Made by a program: the position numbers and the translations under genes. Shown here one piece after another: positions 54,321 to 63,884 of a stretch of 64,000 nucleotides of DNA. The stretch's first letter is position 1. Each line of letters begins with the position of its first letter. The notes under the pieces are model-generated. The model did not search any database, had not been told where the DNA came from, and worked only from the letters and a program-made list of their open reading frames with translations. The stretch covers positions 616,501-680,500 of the forward strand of contig CANNFA010000002.1 in the NCBI GenBank assembly GCA_947503765.1, given 5' to 3'. Source of the stretch: an uncultured Paracoccaceae bacterium (GTDB lineage Bacteria; Pseudomonadota; Alphaproteobacteria; Rhodobacterales; Rhodobacteraceae).

Positions 54321-54465
54321 TGGCCCCGGGACGGGCGAAAAGACTGCCGAACGTCGCCTTGCGGGCGCAATCACCGCGATCACGGCCAAAACCCGGCGCG
54401 CGCCGCGTTCATTTGCGACCTCTGCGGAATAGGCTATGCCCTGCGGCATCGAAAGGCATGAGACG

Positions 54466-55857
54466 ATGACAACGACACGGCGCGACTTTCTGCGATCTGC
54501 CGCAGCGGCGGGATTGGGCGCAGCCTTGCCGCTCAGGGCGCTGGCCGAAGACGGCTTTGCCGCCCTCACCGCGCGGGCGGCACGGCTGCAATTGCTGCCC
54601 GACAGTTATCCGCCGACCGAAATCTGGGGATATGACAGCACCATCCCCGGGCCGGAAATCCGCGTGAAACAGGGTGAGCGGGTGCGCCGGCGCTTTGCCA
54701 ACGCCCTGCCGCAGGACAGTTCGGTCCATTGGCACGGCATCCGGATCGACAACGCGATGGACGGCGTTGCGGGCGTGACGCAGGCGCCTGTCGCGCCCGG
54801 TGACAGCTTCGACTACGATTTCGCCGCGCCGGATGCCGGCACCTACTGGTACCACGCGCATAACCGGTCGTGGGAACAGGTGGCGCGCGGTCTGCACGGG
54901 CCGCTCATCGTCGAAGAGGCCGAGGCCCCCGATGTCGACCGCGAAGAGGTCCTGGTTCTGGATGACTGGTTGCTGAACCCCGAGAGCGGCCAGATCGACG
55001 ACAGTTTCGACCATCCGATGATGATGAGCCATGGCGGCCGGATCGGAAATTACATCACCACGAACGGGCGCTACAACCTGTCGCTGCCCGCGCGCCGACA
55101 CGAGCGGCTGCGGCTGCGCCTGATTAATGCCTCCAACGCGCGGATCTTTCCGCTGAAACTGTCCGGGCTGGCGGGCTGGATCGTCGCCCTCGACGGGATG
55201 CCGCTTGCCGCGCCCTCGCCGGTGGAGGACGTTCTTGTCCTCGGCCCCGCGCAGCGCGCTGATCTGATCGTGGACGTTCTGGCGCAAGAGGGGGAAGACG
55301 CGGATCTTGTCCATGTCGACGACCCCGATGCTTTTTCGCAGGTCGTGTTCCCGGTATCCGGCACGGCCAGCCAGTCGCGGCGGGCACCGCCTGCGGCCTT
55401 GCCGCCCAACCCGAACATGAACATGCCCGATCTGGCCGGGGCGACGCCGCTGCGTCTCGTCATGTCGGGCGGCGCCATGGGACGCATGCAATCGGCCATC
55501 CTGAACGGTGAACGCAAGGGGTTCCGCGAGCTTGCGGCCTCGGGCTATTTCTGGGCGTTCAACGACATGGCGGACATGACCGAAACGCCATTGGCCGATC
55601 TGAGCATGGGCGAGCCTGTGCGCTTGGAGATCGTCAACGACACCGTCTTTCCGCACGCCATGCACCTGCACGGCATGCATTTCCGCGAGGTGTCCGATAA
55701 AGGCGAATTCGGCCCCCTGCGGGATACGATCGTGATGGGCGGCGGCGAGACGCGCGAGATCGCCTTTACTGCGGACAATCCCGGCGACTGGCTGTTCCAC
55801 TGCCACATGCTCAGCCATGCGCCTTCGGGCATGATGACATGGCTTCGGGTGACGTGA
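54466..55857 (+). CDS. Multicopper oxidase, Tat-exported
   Basis: A 463-aa three-cupredoxin-domain oxidase with a Tat leader (TTTRRDFLRSAAAAGLG). All copper ligands are present: VHWHGIRID, YWYHAHNRS, HAMHLHGMHF and LFHCHMLSHAPSGMM, giving one type 1 and one trinuclear site with Met as the axial ligand. The closest type is CueO/SufI-like periplasmic oxidase. It probably oxidises Cu(I) or small reductants in metal defence, in line with its Met-rich neighbours. Confidence 0.93.
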   Translation: MTTTRRDFLRSAAAAGLGAALPLRALAEDGFAALTARAARLQLLPDSYPPTEIWGYDSTIPGPEIRVKQGERVRRRFANALPQDSSVHWHGIRIDNAMDGVAGVTQAPVAPGDSFDYDFAAPDAGTYWYHAHNRSWEQVARGLHGPLIVEEAEAPDVDREEVLVLDDWLLNPESGQIDDSFDHPMMMSHGGRIGNYITTNGRYNLSLPARRHERLRLRLINASNARIFPLKLSGLAGWIVALDGMPLAAPSPVEDVLVLGPAQRADLIVDVLAQEGEDADLVHVDDPDAFSQVVFPVSGTASQSRRAPPAALPPNPNMNMPDLAGATPLRLVMSGGAMGRMQSAILNGERKGFRELAASGYFWAFNDMADMTETPLADLSMGEPVRLEIVNDTVFPHAMHLHGMHFREVSDKGEFGPLRDTIVMGGGETREIAFTADNPGDWLFHCHMLSHAPSGMMTWLRVT

Positions 55858-56064: not shown

Positions 56065-57057
56065 TCAGGCCGAGTGTCGGATAACGAATTGTGCCGGCAC
56101 CACCGCCCGGCCGGGGCGGCCCGTATCCGCCAGCATCCCTGCCGCGCGCTCTGCAATGGCGTCGGCCGACAGCCCGATGGTCGTGATGCCGCCGCATATC
56201 CACCGATAGAAGCTGGGGTCTCCGTATCCCACGAAGGCCAGATCGCCGGGAAACCGCACCCCCCGCCGCAGGCACAAATCCAGCGCCCCGTTGGAAATCT
56301 CGAAGCCGCCGCAGATCACCGCGCTTGGCGGGGCGGGCAGGTCGAGCAGCCCGGCCATCTTTTCCTGTCCCATCGCGAAACCCGGCGCCCCGGTGCGCAC
56401 AAGCGCCGGGTCCTCGGGCCTGTCCAGCGCGCCGGTGGCCTTCCGAAAGGCGGCCAGCCGCGCGCGCCCCGACGACATCGAGGCGCTGGCCCCGATGAAG
56501 CCGATCCGGCGGTGCCCCTGCGCGATCAGATGCGCGGCGGCGGCGGCGATGCTGGGGCCGTCGTCGATCAGCAGCTGGCCGGCGCGGTCGTCCTCGGCGC
56601 GGGTGCGGATCAGCTCGATGATCCTGAAGTCTTCGGGAAAGGGCGGCGCATCGGGCGGCGCTTCGGGGGTCGGGACCATGAACACGGTCGATGCCTGCAA
56701 GGCCCGCAGCCGCAACAGCGACTGCCGCTCGCGGGCCGGTTCGTCATTGGTCAGGTGAATCACCAGATCGTGGTTCCGGTCGGCGCAAAGCAGGGCAAGC
56801 GTGTTGGCGACTTGCGAGTAGAATTCGTTCACCAGGTTCGGAAGCAGCAGGCCGACGATCTCGGTCGCCTCTCCGCGCATGGCGGTCGCGGCGGAATTGC
56901 GCACATAGCCAAGCTCGTGCGCGCGCCCAAGGACCTTTTCGCGGGTGGAGGGTTTGACATTCGGATGCCCGGACAGCGCCCGCGACACCGTCATGTGCGA
57001 GATGCCGAGATCCCTTGCGATGGATTTGATCGTCGCGCGCAACGGTCGTCTTTCCAC
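56065..57057 (-). CDS. LacI-family transcriptional regulator
   Basis: A sugar-responsive repressor of about 330 aa. The N-terminal HTH (ATIKSIARDLGISHMTVSRA) with hinge helix is followed by a periplasmic-binding-like effector domain (IVGLLLPNLVNEFYSQ, GHRRIGFIGASA, DLAFVGYGDPSF). Start choice lies between GTG at 57057 and TTG at 57042; both are non-ATG and both are close to purine-rich sites. It is divergent from the kinase-enolase-SDR operon, whose promoter carries a LacI-type operator. Confidence 0.9.
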   Translation of the reverse strand: MERRPLRATIKSIARDLGISHMTVSRALSGHPNVKPSTREKVLGRAHELGYVRNSAATAMRGEATEIVGLLLPNLVNEFYSQVANTLALLCADRNHDLVIHLTNDEPARERQSLLRLRALQASTVFMVPTPEAPPDAPPFPEDFRIIELIRTRAEDDRAGQLLIDDGPSIAAAAAHLIAQGHRRIGFIGASASMSSGRARLAAFRKATGALDRPEDPALVRTGAPGFAMGQEKMAGLLDLPAPPSAVICGGFEISNGALDLCLRRGVRFPGDLAFVGYGDPSFYRWICGGITTIGLSADAIAERAAGMLADTGRPGRAVVPAQFVIRHSA

Positions 57058-57135
57058 CTGCCTGCCGCCCTTTGCCTGCGAATGGCGGCCCTGGGGTGCC
57101 CGGCCGCCGATCCCGTGATCCACCCGAATTCGATC

Positions 57136-57162
57136 TTGACACACAGCGCCGTGCAGGACAAT
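57136..57162 (+). promoter_or_regulatory. Sigma70-type promoter of the kinase-enolase operon
   Basis: TTGACA (57136-57141) and GACAAT (57157-57162) are separated by 15 bp; a 16-bp reading with ACAATT is also possible. It directly abuts the LacI-type operator. Confidence 0.55.
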
Positions 57163-57176
57163 TGTTAACGTGAACA
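57163..57176. promoter_or_regulatory. LacI-family operator
   Basis: TGTTAAC-GTGAACA is a 14-bp dyad with a single mismatch to the palindromic TGTTAACGTTAACA form common for LacI-family sugar repressors in alphaproteobacteria. It lies at about the transcription start of the downstream operon, a position suited to repression. Confidence 0.75.
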
Positions 57177-57203
57177 GTCTGCGTGAACACCAGTGGGGCC
57201 GCG

Positions 57204-58208
57204 ATGCAAGGAGGACGTGCAAACGGGGATTTCGACCGTCGCTGCGCGCTTCTGCTGACCGATCTCGGGCTGTGCGACGCGGAGGCGGATATCGAGATCC
57301 GGCGGCTCAGCGGCGGGGTCGCCTCGGATATTGCGGCGGTGACCTGCGCCGGCCGAACGTTTTGTCTGAAATTCGCCCTGGCCAAGCTGGCCGTGGCCGA
57401 AGACTGGTTCGCGCCGGTCCATCGCAGCCGGGCGGAATTCGCCTGGCTGTCTTTCGCGGGATCGGTGGTGCCCGGATGCGCGCCCGCGCTGTACGGGTTT
57501 TCCGAGGCGCAGAACGGCTTTGCGATGGAGTTTCTTTCCGGCGCCGATATCCATCTGTGGAAACAGGCGCTGCTGGAGGGTGCGCCGGACCGGGGCGAGG
57601 CGCAGGCGGTGGGCGACACGCTTGGCCGCATCCATGCCGCCTCGACCGAGCCGGATTTTGACACGGCGCCGTTCGAGAATGCCGAGGATTTCGACGCGCT
57701 GCGGCTGGAGCCCTATCTGCGCTTCACAGCGACCCGGCACCCGGCGCTGGCCGAGCACCTGACGGAAATGGCCATCTGGCTCAAGGAAAGCCGGATCGCG
57801 CTGGTCCATGGCGATGTCAGCCCCAAGAACATCCTGGTCCGGGCCGGGCGGCCGGTGCTGCTGGACGCGGAATGCGCGAGCATGGGCGATCCGGCCTTCG
57901 ACGTGGCCTTCTGCCTGAACCATCTGGTGCTCAAGGCGTATCACATGCCTGACCGGCGCGAGGCCCTGCTGGGGCAGGTTTCCGCCCTCTGGTCCGCCTA
58001 TTCCCCGCATGTCGAATGGGAACGTGCCGCCGGGCTTGAAAGCCGGATCGCCATGCTGTTGCCGATGCTGATGCTGGCGCGGATCGACGGAAAATCGCCC
58101 GTGGAATACCTGGACGACGCGGCGCGGGGCAGGGTGCGCGGGCAAGCCTGCGCCCTGATCGAGCGCCCGCCCGAGAGCCTTGGTGAAGTGAAGGACCGCC
58201 TGTCATGA
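57204..58208 (+). CDS. Aminoglycoside-phosphotransferase-fold small-molecule kinase
   Basis: A 334-aa APH/choline-kinase-fold enzyme. The Brenner-type catalytic loop is LVHGDVSPKNILV and the metal site is LLDAECASMGDPAFDVAF. The N-lobe Lys is in FCLKFALAK. In this LacI-controlled operon the likely substrate is a sugar or sugar-acid hydroxyl rather than an antibiotic. The ATG at 57204 is preferred to an in-frame GTG at 57183 because the GTG would lie within about 13 bases of the predicted transcription start. It overlaps the enolase-like gene by 4 bp. Confidence 0.85.
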   Translation: MQGGRANGDFDRRCALLLTDLGLCDAEADIEIRRLSGGVASDIAAVTCAGRTFCLKFALAKLAVAEDWFAPVHRSRAEFAWLSFAGSVVPGCAPALYGFSEAQNGFAMEFLSGADIHLWKQALLEGAPDRGEAQAVGDTLGRIHAASTEPDFDTAPFENAEDFDALRLEPYLRFTATRHPALAEHLTEMAIWLKESRIALVHGDVSPKNILVRAGRPVLLDAECASMGDPAFDVAFCLNHLVLKAYHMPDRREALLGQVSALWSAYSPHVEWERAAGLESRIAMLLPMLMLARIDGKSPVEYLDDAARGRVRGQACALIERPPESLGEVKDRLS

Positions 58209-59533
58209 AGGATGCCGATATCGTGGACACTGCGATCGAAGGCCTGACCGCGCGCCGGGTCTGGGACAGTCGCGGGAACCCGACAATCGAGGTCGAGATA
58301 CGCTGTGCCTCGGGCGCCACCGGTCGGGCCATCGCCCCGGCCGGCGCGTCGCGCGGCACGCGAGAGGCGATCGACCTGCGCGACGGCGGCGACCGGCTGG
58401 GCGGGGTCGATGTGCGCCGCGCGGTGTCGGGCGTGACCGACATGATCGCGCCGCTTCTGCGGGGCCGGGATGCCGCCGATCAGGCCGGCATCGACGCGGC
58501 GCTGATCGCCTGCGACGGCACGAAGCTGAAATCGAAGCTGGGCGGCAACGCGATGGTCGCCGCCTCGCTGGCCGTCCTGCACGCGGCCGCTGCGGCAAGA
58601 GGCGTTCCGCTTTGGCGGCATGTCGCGGATCTGACGGGCCAGACGCCAAGCCTGCCCTTGCCCGAGATCCAGATCTTCGGCGGCGGCGCGCATGCCGGGC
58701 GGCGGGTGGATGTGCAGGATTTCATGGTCATGGTCCCCGGTGCAGGCAGCTTTGACGAGGTGCTGGAGGTCACCTCGGAAATCTACCGCGCGGCCGGGGC
58801 GATCATGGCCCGGAAGGGCAAGCTGGCCGGAGTCGCGGACGAGGGCGGCTGGTGGCCGTCCTTCGACAGCAACGAAGAGGCGCTTGAAACGCTGGTCGCC
58901 GCCATAGAGGCCGCGGGCGAGACGCCGGGCGAGCGCGTCGTCATCTCGCTGGACATCGCGGCGTCGGAATTCGGATCGAACGGGCGCTACCGCCTTGCGC
59001 TGGAGGATCGCGAACTGGACAGGGGCCAGTTGATCGACCTGCTGGGCCGCTGGATCGACGCCTATCCCATCGCCTCGATCGAGGATCCGCTGGCCGAGGA
59101 CGATTCCGAGGGGATGGTGGCCTTCACCGCGCTTTACGGCGACCGGTTGCAGATCATCGGCGACGATTACCTTGTGACCAACGCGGCGCTGGTGGATGCG
59201 GCGGCGGCCGCGGGCGCCTGCAACGCGGTCCTGATCAAGGTCAACCAGGCCGGGACGGTCAGCGAATCCATCGAATGCGCGGCGCGGGCGCGAAAGCACG
59301 GCTTTCGCGGCATCGTCTCGGCCCGGTCGGGCGAGACAGAGGATGTGTCGATCTCGCATCTGGCGGTGGGGCTGGGCGCCGGCCAGCTCAAGGTCGGCTC
59401 GATCACCCGGTCGGAACGGACGGCGAAATGGAACGAATGCCTGCGCATAGCGGGCGCGCTGGGGCCGGGCGCCTATGCCGGCGGCGCGGCGCTGGCGGGC
59501 ACATGGTGGGGCCGCAAAGGGGACGACACATGA
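58205..59533 (+). CDS. Enolase-superfamily paralogue with altered active site
   Basis: A 442-aa protein homologous to phosphopyruvate hydratase over its full length: RRVWDSRGNPTIEVE, LDIAASEF, SIEDPLAEDD, IIGDDYLVTN, LIKVNQAGT and the SGETED loop. Mg ligands (Asp250, Glu293, Asp320), the catalytic Lys345 and Glu213 are kept. The active-site His of SHRSGET is Ala373 (SARSGET), and the Glu of QEFM is Asp172 (QDFM). These changes suggest another substrate than 2-phosphoglycerate, perhaps a larger phosphorylated acid. It is in a LacI-regulated operon, not beside housekeeping genes. Confidence 0.88.
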   Translation: MKDADIVDTAIEGLTARRVWDSRGNPTIEVEIRCASGATGRAIAPAGASRGTREAIDLRDGGDRLGGVDVRRAVSGVTDMIAPLLRGRDAADQAGIDAALIACDGTKLKSKLGGNAMVAASLAVLHAAAAARGVPLWRHVADLTGQTPSLPLPEIQIFGGGAHAGRRVDVQDFMVMVPGAGSFDEVLEVTSEIYRAAGAIMARKGKLAGVADEGGWWPSFDSNEEALETLVAAIEAAGETPGERVVISLDIAASEFGSNGRYRLALEDRELDRGQLIDLLGRWIDAYPIASIEDPLAEDDSEGMVAFTALYGDRLQIIGDDYLVTNAALVDAAAAAGACNAVLIKVNQAGTVSESIECAARARKHGFRGIVSARSGETEDVSISHLAVGLGAGQLKVGSITRSERTAKWNECLRIAGALGPGAYAGGAALAGTWWGRKGDDT

Positions 59534-59697
59534 AACTGCTTCGCTACGGCGCGGATTGCCGGACCGCTCGCATCGCGGCCAGGGCGTGTGCCGCGCCTCG
59601 GCAATCCGTGAACCCGGGGGGCCGTATCCGCCTCGGCCTCGAAGAACCGGGCGCGCGGTGCCGGGTTGAGCCCCTGATCGCGGAGGCGACACGATGA
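59530..59697 (+). pseudogene. Short frame with FAH-like N-terminus, probable remnant
   Basis: A 55-aa frame overlapping both neighbours (ATGA at each end). It begins MKLLRYG, the typical start of fumarylacetoacetate hydrolase-family enzymes. The rest (RIAARACAAPRQ onwards) is Arg/Ala-rich with no catalytic EPE motif, and the usual 280 residues are missing. Either it is a deletion remnant that keeps translational coupling, or a genuine small protein. The FAH link rests on seven residues. Confidence 0.45.
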
Positions 59698-60443
59698 ACA
59701 GCTACGACTACAAGGGCCGCGTCGCGGTCGTCACCGGCGGCGCAAACGGTATCGGCGCGGCGGTGGCCGAACGCATGGCGGCCTCGGGTGCGCGGATCGC
59801 GATCTGGGACATGGACGTGTCGGCCCCCGACAAGCGGGTGGCGGGGCTGGCCGAAGATGCCTGCCAGATGGTGCAGGTCGATGTCAGCGATCCGGGCAGC
59901 GTGGCAGAGGCCATGGCGCAGACCGAATCCGCGTTCGGGCAGATCGACGTGCTGGTCAACAGCGCTGGGATCGCCGGGCCGACAGCCACCCTGGCCGAAT
60001 ACGACCCCGCGATGTGGCGCAAGGTGCAGGCGGTGAACCTGGATGGCACCTATCTGTGCTGCCGCGCCGTGGTGCCGGGCATGCGGGATCGGGGCTATGG
60101 CCGGATCGTCAACGTCGCCTCGATCGCGGGCAAGGAAGGCAACCCCAACGCCTCGGCCTATTCGGCGTCGAAGGCGGCGGTGATCGCGCTGACCAAGTCG
60201 CTGGGCAAGGAGCTGGCGGATGTCGATGTCGCGGTGAACTGCATCACGCCGGCCACCGCGCAGACCCGCATCCTGGAACAGGTCAGCACAGAGTTCATCG
60301 ACTACATGCGCTCCAAGATCCCGCGCGGCCGGTTCGTCACCGTCGAGGAGATCGCGAGCATGGTGCTCTGGATCGCCTCGGCCGAGAATTCGTTCACCAC
60401 CGGCGCGGTGTTCGATCTGTCCGGCGGCCGCGCAACCTATTGA
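59694..60443 (+). CDS. SDR-family dehydrogenase of the catabolic operon
   Basis: A 249-aa short-chain dehydrogenase with cofactor motif TGGANGIG, an acidic residue after strand 2 (IAIWDMD, favouring NAD), NSAGIAG and catalytic YSASK. It shares IASIAGKEGNPNASAYSASK and the terminal FDLSGGRATY with the SDR at 8 kb. The order kinase, enolase-like, FAH-like remnant, SDR suggests a route through a phosphorylated or keto-deoxy sugar acid. The reaction itself is unknown. Confidence 0.9.
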   Translation: MNSYDYKGRVAVVTGGANGIGAAVAERMAASGARIAIWDMDVSAPDKRVAGLAEDACQMVQVDVSDPGSVAEAMAQTESAFGQIDVLVNSAGIAGPTATLAEYDPAMWRKVQAVNLDGTYLCCRAVVPGMRDRGYGRIVNVASIAGKEGNPNASAYSASKAAVIALTKSLGKELADVDVAVNCITPATAQTRILEQVSTEFIDYMRSKIPRGRFVTVEEIASMVLWIASAENSFTTGAVFDLSGGRATY

Positions 60444-61958: not shown

Positions 61959-63884
61959 ATGTTATCCGAACTCATGACGATCTACAGAAACCCCGCCGCG
62001 CGGCGCAAATGGCTGACCATTGCCAGCGGTGTGTTCATCACCTTTGCGCTGGTCGCCTGGTACGGCTTCGGGCTGGCCGCGCCTTGGGCACCGTTCATGA
62101 CGATCGCCGCCGTGCTTGCAGGGTATGACATTGCCCTGCGGGCCTGGGGCGCGTTGCGCCTGCGCCAGCTCAGCATCGAATTGCTGGTGATCGTGGCCGC
62201 GGTGGGTGCGCTGTTCATCGACAACCACTGGGAATCGGCCGCCGTGACCTTCCTGTTCATGCTGGGCGCCTGGCTGGAGACCCGCACCATGAGCCGCACG
62301 CGCGGCGCGCTCAAGGCGCTGATCGACGCGGCCCCCGTGACGGCAACCGTGCTGCGGAATGGCGAAACGGTCGAGGTGGCGGCCCATGAGGTGGGCGTCG
62401 GCGAGACCGTCCTGGTCCGGGCCGGTGAACGCCTGCCCGTCGACGGCGAAGTGACCGACGGTACCGCCGCCGTCAACGAGGCGTCGATCACGGGCGAACC
62501 GATTCCGGCCGAAAAGGCCCCGGGATCAAAGGTCTTCGCCGGAACCCTGGCCGAAAACGGGTTGCTGCATCTGCGCGCCACCGGCGTCGGCGCCGACACC
62601 ACGCTCGCCCGCATCATCAGCCGCGTCGAAGAGGCGCAGGAGGCCAAGGCCCCGGCCCAGCGGATGATCGAGAGCTTCGGGCGCTGGTACACCCCGGCTG
62701 TCTTCGTGATGGCGGTTCTCAGCTATCTCGTCACGCGCAACGTCGAACTGGCGCTGACGCTGCTGGTGGTCAGCTGCCCCGGTGCGCTGGTCATCTCGAC
62801 ACCGGTTTCCGTGGTGGCCGGGATCGGGCGCGCGGCCCGTGCCGGCATACTGATCAAGGGCGGAGAGCATCTTGAGAATGCCGGGCGCATCAACACTCTG
62901 GCGCTCGACAAGACCGGCACGCTGACCGAAGGCGAGCCGCGCCTGGCCGAGGTCGTGGCGCTGGCGGGCCAATCCGAGGCCGATGTGCTGCTTTGGGCGG
63001 GCATCGCCGAGACCGGGTCGAGCCATCCGCTGGGCCGCCCGATCATCGAGGCGGCGCGCAAGCAGGGCCACCTGCCCACCGCCGAGGAGCTGGAAGAAAT
63101 CGCCGGCATGGGCCTGATCGCGCGCCATGACGGGCACGAGATCGCCGTCGGAAGCCACCGCCTGTTCGATCATCTCGAGATCGGCTTTGACGCCGAGACC
63201 AAGGCAGGCATCGCCCGGCTGCATGATCTGGGCCACACGGTGGTGATCGTGGCACGCAATGGCAAGGTCGCGGGTCTGCTGGGCCTGGCCGACATGCCGC
63301 GCGCCAGTGCAAGGCCGATGATCGACCGGCTGCATGCGCTGGGGGTGAACCGCGTGGTGATGCTCACCGGCGACCAGCGCCCGGCGGCCGAGGCGATTGC
63401 CAAGGCGGTCGGCGTCGACGAGGTGCATGCCGCGATGATGCCCGACGACAAGCTGGAGCGGATCCGCAATATGCGCGCCGAGGGTCTGCGCGTGGCGATG
63501 GTCGGCGACGGCATCAACGACGCGCCCGCCCTCGCGGCGGCCGATATCAGCATCGCGATGGGGGCGTCGGGAAGCGACATCGCCATCGAGACGGCGGATA
63601 TCGCGCTGATGACCGACGATCTGGGCAAGATCGCCGAGGCGATGGAAATCTCGCGCGCCACGCTGACCAACATGCGCCAGAACCTCGTCATCGCGGTTCT
63701 GACCGTCATCGGCCTGCTGTTCGGGGTCTATACCGGCAGCATTCACATGGCGGGCGGCATGCTGGTGCACCAGCTTTCGGTGCTGATCGTCATCCTCAAC
63801 GGCATGCGCCTGCTGCGCGTGCCCAAGGCGAGCAGGGCCAGGGCAGGCAGCGTCAAGGCGAAGGCCACGCGCGTCGCGGCATAG
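61959..63884 (+). CDS. P1B-type heavy-metal ATPase with Cys-Pro-Gly membrane motif
   Basis: A 641-aa heavy-metal P-type ATPase without an N-terminal metal-binding domain. The A-domain motif is ITGEPIP, the phosphorylated Asp317 is in DKTGTLTEG, the N-domain His-Pro is in SSHPLG, and the hinge is MVGDGINDAPAL. The ion-channel helix reads SCPGALVIS (Cys273-Pro-Gly) instead of the common CPC or SPC. The last helix has HQLSVLIVILN, without the Asp typical of Zn/Cd pumps. The transported metal is therefore uncertain. Confidence 0.92.
   Translation: MLSELMTIYRNPAARRKWLTIASGVFITFALVAWYGFGLAAPWAPFMTIAAVLAGYDIALRAWGALRLRQLSIELLVIVAAVGALFIDNHWESAAVTFLFMLGAWLETRTMSRTRGALKALIDAAPVTATVLRNGETVEVAAHEVGVGETVLVRAGERLPVDGEVTDGTAAVNEASITGEPIPAEKAPGSKVFAGTLAENGLLHLRATGVGADTTLARIISRVEEAQEAKAPAQRMIESFGRWYTPAVFVMAVLSYLVTRNVELALTLLVVSCPGALVISTPVSVVAGIGRAARAGILIKGGEHLENAGRINTLALDKTGTLTEGEPRLAEVVALAGQSEADVLLWAGIAETGSSHPLGRPIIEAARKQGHLPTAEELEEIAGMGLIARHDGHEIAVGSHRLFDHLEIGFDAETKAGIARLHDLGHTVVIVARNGKVAGLLGLADMPRASARPMIDRLHALGVNRVVMLTGDQRPAAEAIAKAVGVDEVHAAMMPDDKLERIRNMRAEGLRVAMVGDGINDAPALAAADISIAMGASGSDIAIETADIALMTDDLGKIAEAMEISRATLTNMRQNLVIAVLTVIGLLFGVYTGSIHMAGGMLVHQLSVLIVILNGMRLLRVPKASRARAGSVKAKATRVAA

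Follow-up and report, generated by a model that had tools for sequence, protein, structure and literature searches.

We examined a 64,000-nucleotide stretch of DNA (hereafter, the window) from an uncultured Paracoccaceae bacterium, in which a small-molecule kinase and an unusual enolase paralogue are coded side by side. Their locus (positions 56065–60443) comprises a minus-strand LacI-family gene and, divergent from it, a packed operon of three intact genes and one remnant (Table 1). The intact genes code for an APH-fold kinase, the enolase paralogue and an SDR, and all three junctions within the operon are 4-base ATGA overlaps. Thus, both the Pfam matches and the overlaps agree with the initial annotation of this DNA, which had described a tightly coupled set of kinase, enolase paralogue and SDR.

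Table 1. Features of the kinase–enolase locus, in window coordinates.
Feature	Position	Strand	Remarks
LacI-family regulator	56065..57042	-	PF00356 and PF13377; divergent; start codon provisional
TTGACA, −35-like box	57136..57141	+	Read in the sequence
LacI-type operator TGTTAACGTGAACA	57163..57176	.	One base from the TGTTCACGTGAACA of relatives
APH-fold kinase	57204..58208	+	PF01636, E 2e-20; alternative start GTG 57183
Enolase paralogue, A373 and D172	58205..59533	+	PF03952 and PF00113
FAH-gene remnant, 55 codons	59530..59697	+	Both ends FAH-like, middle missing (visual judgement)
SDR	59694..60443	+	82% identical counterpart in L003, at the same place

An enolase paralogue altered around the C3-hydroxyl site

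When aligned with the E. coli enolase as the reference (187 identities over 426 aligned positions), A373 and D172 of the paralogue fall on His369 and Glu167 (which we take to be H373 and E168 in the yeast enolase numbering), confirming the positions given to these substitutions in the initial annotation. The metal ligands and the catalytic Lys are retained, as had also been claimed: S49, H163, E213, D250, E293, D320, K345, R374, S375 and K396 are kept relative to the E. coli enzyme and are invariant in a 25-row alignment (A3). The structural model of the paralogue (pLDDT 89) has the E. coli enolase as its best solved match (43% identity, TM 0.93), and the protein scores 447.4 bits against TIGR01060, the phosphopyruvate hydratase equivalog model (cut-off 300).

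The two altered positions lie together in the active site. In E. coli enolase with SF2312 (PMC6863902), Glu167, Lys392 and His369 hold the group analogous to the C3 hydroxyl of 2-phosphoglycerate. The phosphonate is bound by Ala40, Ser371, His158, Arg370 and Mg2, while Mg1, Gln166, Asp316 and Lys392 contact the carboxylate mimic. Among the side chains in these contacts, only Glu167 and His369 differ in the paralogue; hence, as far as the described contacts go, the C3-hydroxyl pocket has been changed and the phosphate and carboxylate pockets have been spared. The base and the general acid of the yeast enolase, given as Lys345 and Glu211 in PMC4450660, also have their counterparts kept. This pattern predicts a substrate that still bears the 2-phosphate and the carboxylate, with a bulkier, perhaps charged, group on C3.

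The paralogue is not the sole enolase of its genome: a canonical enolase, 41% identical to it, is coded on a separate contig (C6). In a search of 61 genomes, including its own, with the window paralogue as the query, eight were found to have a protein of at least 58% identity, and all eight also have one at 40–46%. A clade-profile search across 289 genomes of the class recovered 23 matches of at least 591 bits, with the next match at 515. By match number, as counted from the result table (with the score visible for 16 of the 22 genomes), a second enolase match is present in 22 of these 23 variant carriers, the exception being a genome that is 63% complete.

The variant clade and its kinase partner

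To place the paralogue, GTDB species genomes were scanned with the window enolase, and the best 80 of 246 relatives were used. Adding the window itself, seven loci on plasmids and another seven from relatives brought the set to 95 variant rows; L120, a second entry for the window, and one of the two broken enolase pieces of L077 were left out. We found 23 columns that separate the 95 variant rows from 53 canonical rows at 90% or more in each group. A373 and D172 are present in all 95 variant rows, whereas all 53 canonical rows have H and E at these positions. Thus, the changes are no oddity of one strain, and none of the canonical enolases compared carries changes of this type. With a canonical enolase also present in the genome, the observations that the initial annotation had named as refuting its reading did not turn up. 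In the mobile loop L2, R166 is found in 92 of the 95 variant rows as against N in all 53 canonical rows, and R167 is invariant in A3. A tree of the 95 variant and 30 canonical rows, built by a quick method without bootstrap, splits the two groups by one branch (SH-aLRT 100). The variant carriers named in it belong to the Alpha-, Beta- and Gammaproteobacteria, Streptomyces, Acidobacteriota and Binatota. At the DNA level, among 398 genomes of the phylum, 10 contained the codon pattern for SARSGET and one contained its backward control. One member, on a plasmid of Rhizobium sp. RCAM05350 (L077:9863-11312), has its variant enolase as well as its kinase and LacI matches in pieces, and thus looks broken.

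The kinase displays conserved HGD204, N209 and D221. Its model (pLDDT 93) is closest among solved folds to the methylthioribose kinases at 16–18% identity, with 2pyw ranking first in Foldseek (E 5e-17, 18% identity) and 2olc in the sequence-profile search (E 3e-15). In fold, 5-methylthioribose kinase (MtnK) and further APH-fold kinases are thus its closest known counterparts, yet it stays far below the cut-off of the methylthioribose kinase family TIGR01767 (47.8 versus 275 bits). Nor do the annotated loci that we looked at name any gene of methionine salvage, the other loci not having been probed for one.

The kinase is a near-obligate partner of the variant enolase. It is found in 89 of the 95 variant loci, on the same strand within 300 bp in 66 and farther away in 23; the six loci lacking it are L006, L012, L027, L028, L056 and L058, with too little sequence before the enolase in L006 and L058. 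Within 1500 bp a kinase match is seen in 70 of the 95 variant loci, as opposed to none of the 53 canonical enolase loci (about 4 kb each). The pairwise distances of the kinases and enolases are correlated over 88 loci (r 0.77, compared to at most 0.15 in 1000 permutations). Among the 289 genomes of the class, 23 have the variant enolase, 25 the kinase and 23 both (Fisher p 5e-32, the genomes not being independent).

The two further genomes with a kinase were inspected individually. One (G159, L170:6176-7174) codes for a kinase orthologue (417 bits) and has no variant enolase; VOC-type and MFS-type genes, so named from reading the sequences, lie nearby. In the other (G228, L171:2107-4454), a divergent kinase, 36% identical to that of the window, overlaps a divergent enolase gene. 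The product of the latter is 50% identical to the canonical enolase of its own genome and 45% to the window paralogue, and it still has A373 and D172 (SARSGET, QDF). Over the 23 diagnostic columns it shows the variant state in eight, the canonical state in six and neither in nine, and it attaches between the canonical and variant clades on a long branch whose position is unsure. Thus, in this genome alone, the active-site changes travel with the kinase though the other columns are mixed. Near this pair are an FAH-like and a 2-hydroxyacid-dehydrogenase-like gene (names again from reading the sequences).

Regulation, companion genes and neighbourhoods

We examined 14 intergenic stretches between the LacI-family and kinase genes, including that of the window. 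The palindromic putative operator with a central CG, TGTTCACGTGAACA, which accompanies the divergent LacI-family gene, occurs exactly in 10 of the 14; L003, L004 and L009 have tandem near-copies. The site in the window is one base off, which upholds, as a predicted site, the near-perfect LacI operator of the initial annotation. Visual inspection shows TTGACA ahead of the operator in 12 of the 14 stretches. Of the sigma70-like promoter that had been proposed, this −35-like box stands, whereas the −10 is weak and a consensus scan yielded no site. Across the 3.98-Mb genome, no site other than TGTTAACGTGAACA comes within one mismatch. This rules out a wider regulon there at that tolerance, and the TTT permease homologue of the genome (68%), on contig C1, is therefore without an operator. 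Among 29 loci scanned for further copies, the operator recurs before TTT genes in Roseibium (L083:4519, exact) and Paracoccus (L084:4757, one mismatch), and before an ABC binding-protein gene in the former (L083:12953, one mismatch). Accordingly, one regulon probably includes both an acid-type and a sugar-type transporter there.

The short frame between the enolase and SDR genes begins with MKLLRYG, as does the FAH of L003, and its end resembles an FAH C-terminus by eye. Its earlier designation as FAH-like is consistent with this likeness of both ends, but it has no Pfam match and its BLAST alignment to the L084 FAH is not significant (E 0.13). By eye, further remnants at the same operon position are seen in L004, L012 and possibly L007, decayed in different ways and with the enolase frame open. 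Ten relatives have open FAH frames (L003, L009, L015, L017, L022, L071, L077, L083, L084 and L087). Among solved structures, the L084 version is nearest to L-2,4-diketo-3-deoxyrhamnonate hydrolase (8gsr, E 2e-81), and two FAHs scored against NF053535 reached 352 and 357 bits (cut-off 500). The last SDR of L084 (SDR3) is nearest to a xylose 1-dehydrogenase model (332 bits, cut-off 400). For the SDR in the window operon the family models are unspecific; we take it to be NAD-type from its WDMD motif. An orthologue of the L084 SDR3 was sought in the window genome and rejected: none of 47 SDR matches exceeds 39%, and the best-scoring one is the window SDR itself at 34%. The genome does have other FAH-like genes, at 50% and 36% to the L084 FAH, the former of which adjoins an IlvD/Edd-like and a 2-hydroxyacid-dehydrogenase-like gene (named from reading). 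No transporter is seen directly beside the window operon in the list of open reading frames. Given this and the decayed FAH, a larger pathway may have been cut down to what is present in the window.

Using probes and score thresholds of our own choice, we grouped the 95 loci into five types, A–E. Type A (21 loci) has FAH and/or SDR genes, in some cases with sugar ABC and TTT transporters and more SDRs. Type B (15 loci) has a 2-hydroxyacid dehydrogenase, which directly follows the enolase in 12. The two type C loci combine a TcuC-like symporter, a 2-hydroxyacid dehydrogenase, an MhpD-like hydratase and an HpaI/GarL-like aldolase; in L066, which has an HpaI/GarL-type aldolase, the symporter scores 520 bits, above the TcuC subfamily cut-off of 445. 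A search of plasmids at near-DNA level with the enterobacterial operon gave no match. In type D (20 loci) the pair is joined by an HpaD-like dioxygenase (290.6 bits, cut-off 321.4) and a cupin, and in 19 of the 20 by a 2-hydroxyacid dehydrogenase; the varying extras are a branched-chain-type ABC system, CMD, a Zn-alcohol dehydrogenase, FMN reductase, FAH and LacI. The dioxygenase probe had no match in the type A, B or C loci. In five Rhizobium loci (L024, L085, L086, L168 and L169), the variant enolase has beside it an unbroken same-strand run of ppc, a 2-hydroxyacid dehydrogenase and the kinase, which resembles a segment of the serine cycle; the ppc probe itself matched 3 of the 95 loci, all Rhizobium, and two further Rhizobium loci were recognised by annotation. 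With neighbours that vary or are not recognised, the kinase–enolase pair looks like a module for several contexts.

Individual loci add further variety. On an Azospirillum brasilense Sp7 plasmid (L089:4903-13290), genes for an iron-type alcohol dehydrogenase, a TRAP transporter, a PhyH-like dioxygenase, a GntR-type regulator, the kinase and the variant enolase stand in a row, and in the Rhodospirillaceae loci L057, L068 and L075 the pair lies near serC- and serA-like genes, with no catabolic neighbour noticed there (names from reading in both cases). As broad hints to transported compounds, the L084 ABC binding protein is nearest to solved sugar-binding proteins, the L084 TTT protein to TTT-family proteins and the L089 TRAP protein to a mixed set, while a type D binding protein (L086) weakly matches Leu/Ile/Val-type proteins.

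A candidate phosphorylation-primed dehydratase and its alternatives

A canonical copy elsewhere in the genome, a clade defined by A373 and D172, and the tie to the kinase together make a plain glycolytic role unlikely and favor a catabolic role on a phosphorylated acid as the best reading. We propose, with middling confidence and from sequence comparisons, a phosphorylation-primed dehydratase that is made up of the kinase and the enolase and acts on a C3-substituted 2,3-dihydroxy acid. The kinase would phosphorylate the 2-hydroxyl of a 2,3-dihydroxycarboxylic acid with a substituent on C3. The enolase would then remove the C2 proton by means of K345 and the C3 hydroxyl with E213 as the acid. 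The product would be the enol phosphate of a 2-keto-3-deoxy acid, and the C3 substituent would fit into the room left by the lost His and the shortened Glu. Loss of the phosphate, either back to ADP or by hydrolysis, would release the 2-keto-3-deoxy acid. In relatives of the window operon, this acid might be oxidized at C4 by an SDR and cleaved by an FAH, while in the enterobacteria an HpaI-type aldol cleavage could follow, HpaI/GarL being a family that cleaves 2-keto-3-deoxy-type acids. As there is no obvious enzyme for supplying such an acid in either setting, the kinase and the enolase could be its source. LacI would free the operon once the inducing acid appears. The initial annotation had suggested a phospho-sugar acid dehydratase: its non-glycolytic character is sustained and a phosphorylated acid is the best fit, but the sugar acid stays a candidate, with neighbours that vary.

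Several of the known systems share elements with this proposal. The glycolytic enolase (EC 4.2.1.11, TIGR01060) has in common with the paralogue the fold, the metal ligands and K345, K396, R374, S375, H163, S49 and E213, whereas the paralogue differs in the H-to-A and E-to-D changes on the C3-hydroxyl side, 21 more diagnostic columns, its own kinase and its status as an accessory copy. Dehydratases of aldonates and aldarates, placed in the mandelate racemase and glucarate dehydratase subgroups of the enolase superfamily, also abstract an alpha-proton with loss of the beta-hydroxyl; however, they act on free acids, whereas the paralogue scores as an enolase proper. The L-rhamnose/L-fucose diketo-hydrolase route, with its 2-keto-3-deoxy-acid 4-dehydrogenase and 2,4-diketo-3-deoxyrhamnonate hydrolase, may resemble type A, where SDRs occur and the L084 FAH is nearest to the hydrolase of the rhamnonate route. 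It differs in that the kinase and the enolase would replace its free-acid dehydratase and in the sub-threshold FAH scores. No free-acid dehydratase is annotated in L083 or L084, and an IlvD-type gene occurs in 3 of the 95 loci; the mandelate-racemase type was not probed for.

Certain observations weigh against the proposed dehydratase. More than a third of the loci (type E, 37 of 95) show no partner probe above threshold, although some of these are contig ends or loci of about 4 kb, and three from Streptomyces (L020, L027 and L028) resemble type D. The substrates of the partners cannot be read from their names, since most score below NCBIfam cut-offs, other than the L066 symporter and an L084 SDR at 216.7 bits, just above the cut-off of 215 for the broad glucose 1-dehydrogenase subfamily. 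In L009, L017 and L073 an IlvD/Edd-type dehydratase gene lies within the stretch examined, making a second dehydrating system seem superfluous there. Beside the pair we noticed neither a phosphatase nor a homologue of pyruvate kinase, for which no dedicated search was made. Finally, the consecutive ppc, dehydrogenase and kinase genes of the five Rhizobium loci fit the formation of phosphoenolpyruvate (PEP) better.

PEP formation is the main rival, though on the whole we consider it unlikely. Here, a 2-hydroxyacid dehydrogenase would yield a glycerate-like acid, the kinase would be a glycerate-type 2-kinase, and the enolase would produce PEP or a short homologue, to be used in Rhizobium by PEP carboxylase. 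The serine cycle has an analogous route from glycerate to PEP. Besides the Rhizobium run, the 2-hydroxyacid dehydrogenases of the 15 type B, both type C and 19 of the 20 type D loci and the serC- and serA-like genes near the pair in L057, L068 and L075 speak for it. Yet a canonical enolase is already there in the host to act on 2-phosphoglycerate, and ppc is confined to the three probe-matched and two annotated Rhizobium loci. Moreover, both altered residues contact the C3 hydroxyl of 2-phosphoglycerate in the contacts described for the E. coli enzyme (PMC6863902); as they hold this group, 2-phosphoglycerate should be a poor substrate, while a small homologue would still be compatible. The type D loci, which join the pair to an HpaD-like dioxygenase, CMD, a Zn-alcohol dehydrogenase and partly FMN reductase, raise a rather improbable alternative, namely a different reaction on the kept phosphate and carboxylate sites, with another C3 leaving group or a cyclic or aromatic-derived acid in such HpaD-like clusters. 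This is countered by the retention of E213, the general acid for the departure of hydroxide, and by the negative dioxygenase probe in types A, B and C.

That the paralogue is an ordinary 2-phosphoglycerate isozyme with neutral substitutions appears highly improbable. Its TIGR01060 score, enolase fold and remaining catalytic residues would fit such a role; against it are the 23 diagnostic columns, including the two of the C3-hydroxyl site, its occurrence as an extra copy in 8 of 8 carriers and, by match number, 22 of 23, and the kinase in all 23 variant genomes. We give scarcely any credence to the window copy being a decaying remnant without present function: the FAH is indeed down to 55 codons with no transporter seen directly beside the operon, but the kinase, enolase and SDR frames are intact, the invariant residues of the kinase and the enolase and the operator are conserved, and the genome has other FAH-like genes.

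On a broader scale, the folds of both proteins are known, and in targeted searches of the open full-text literature for this gene set or a non-glycolytic enolase (a scope that excludes subscription papers and preprints) we recognised no description of the gene set; thus, the pairing is undescribed as far as searched and the reaction probably so. The SFLD table as reproduced in PMC4922564 gives one family for the enolase subgroup, and the NCBI model and the annotated records seen name the variant clade phosphopyruvate hydratase. Beyond the window, and somewhat more tentatively than for the dehydratase itself, we suggest that the pair may constitute a second catalytic family in this subgroup: a general dehydratase of two enzymes, where an APH-fold kinase would spend ATP on priming a dihydroxy acid and a reshaped enolase would convert the primed acid to an enol phosphate with energy that might be regained. 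Under the annotation of glycolytic enolase, it would serve several routes of catabolism in Pseudomonadota, Actinomycetota, Acidobacteriota and Binatota. Enolase has been treated as a one-reaction family, and the variant clade makes a second reaction testable with two purified proteins. If true, metabolic models that count the variant genes as glycolysis would need correction, and the pair would open the way into an undescribed route of catabolism among bacteria from soil, from plants and from the sea.

In the flanking region of the window locus, a multicopper-oxidase-like gene and a P-type-ATPase-like gene were recognised at 54436–55857 and 61959–63884 from the translations of the open reading frames.

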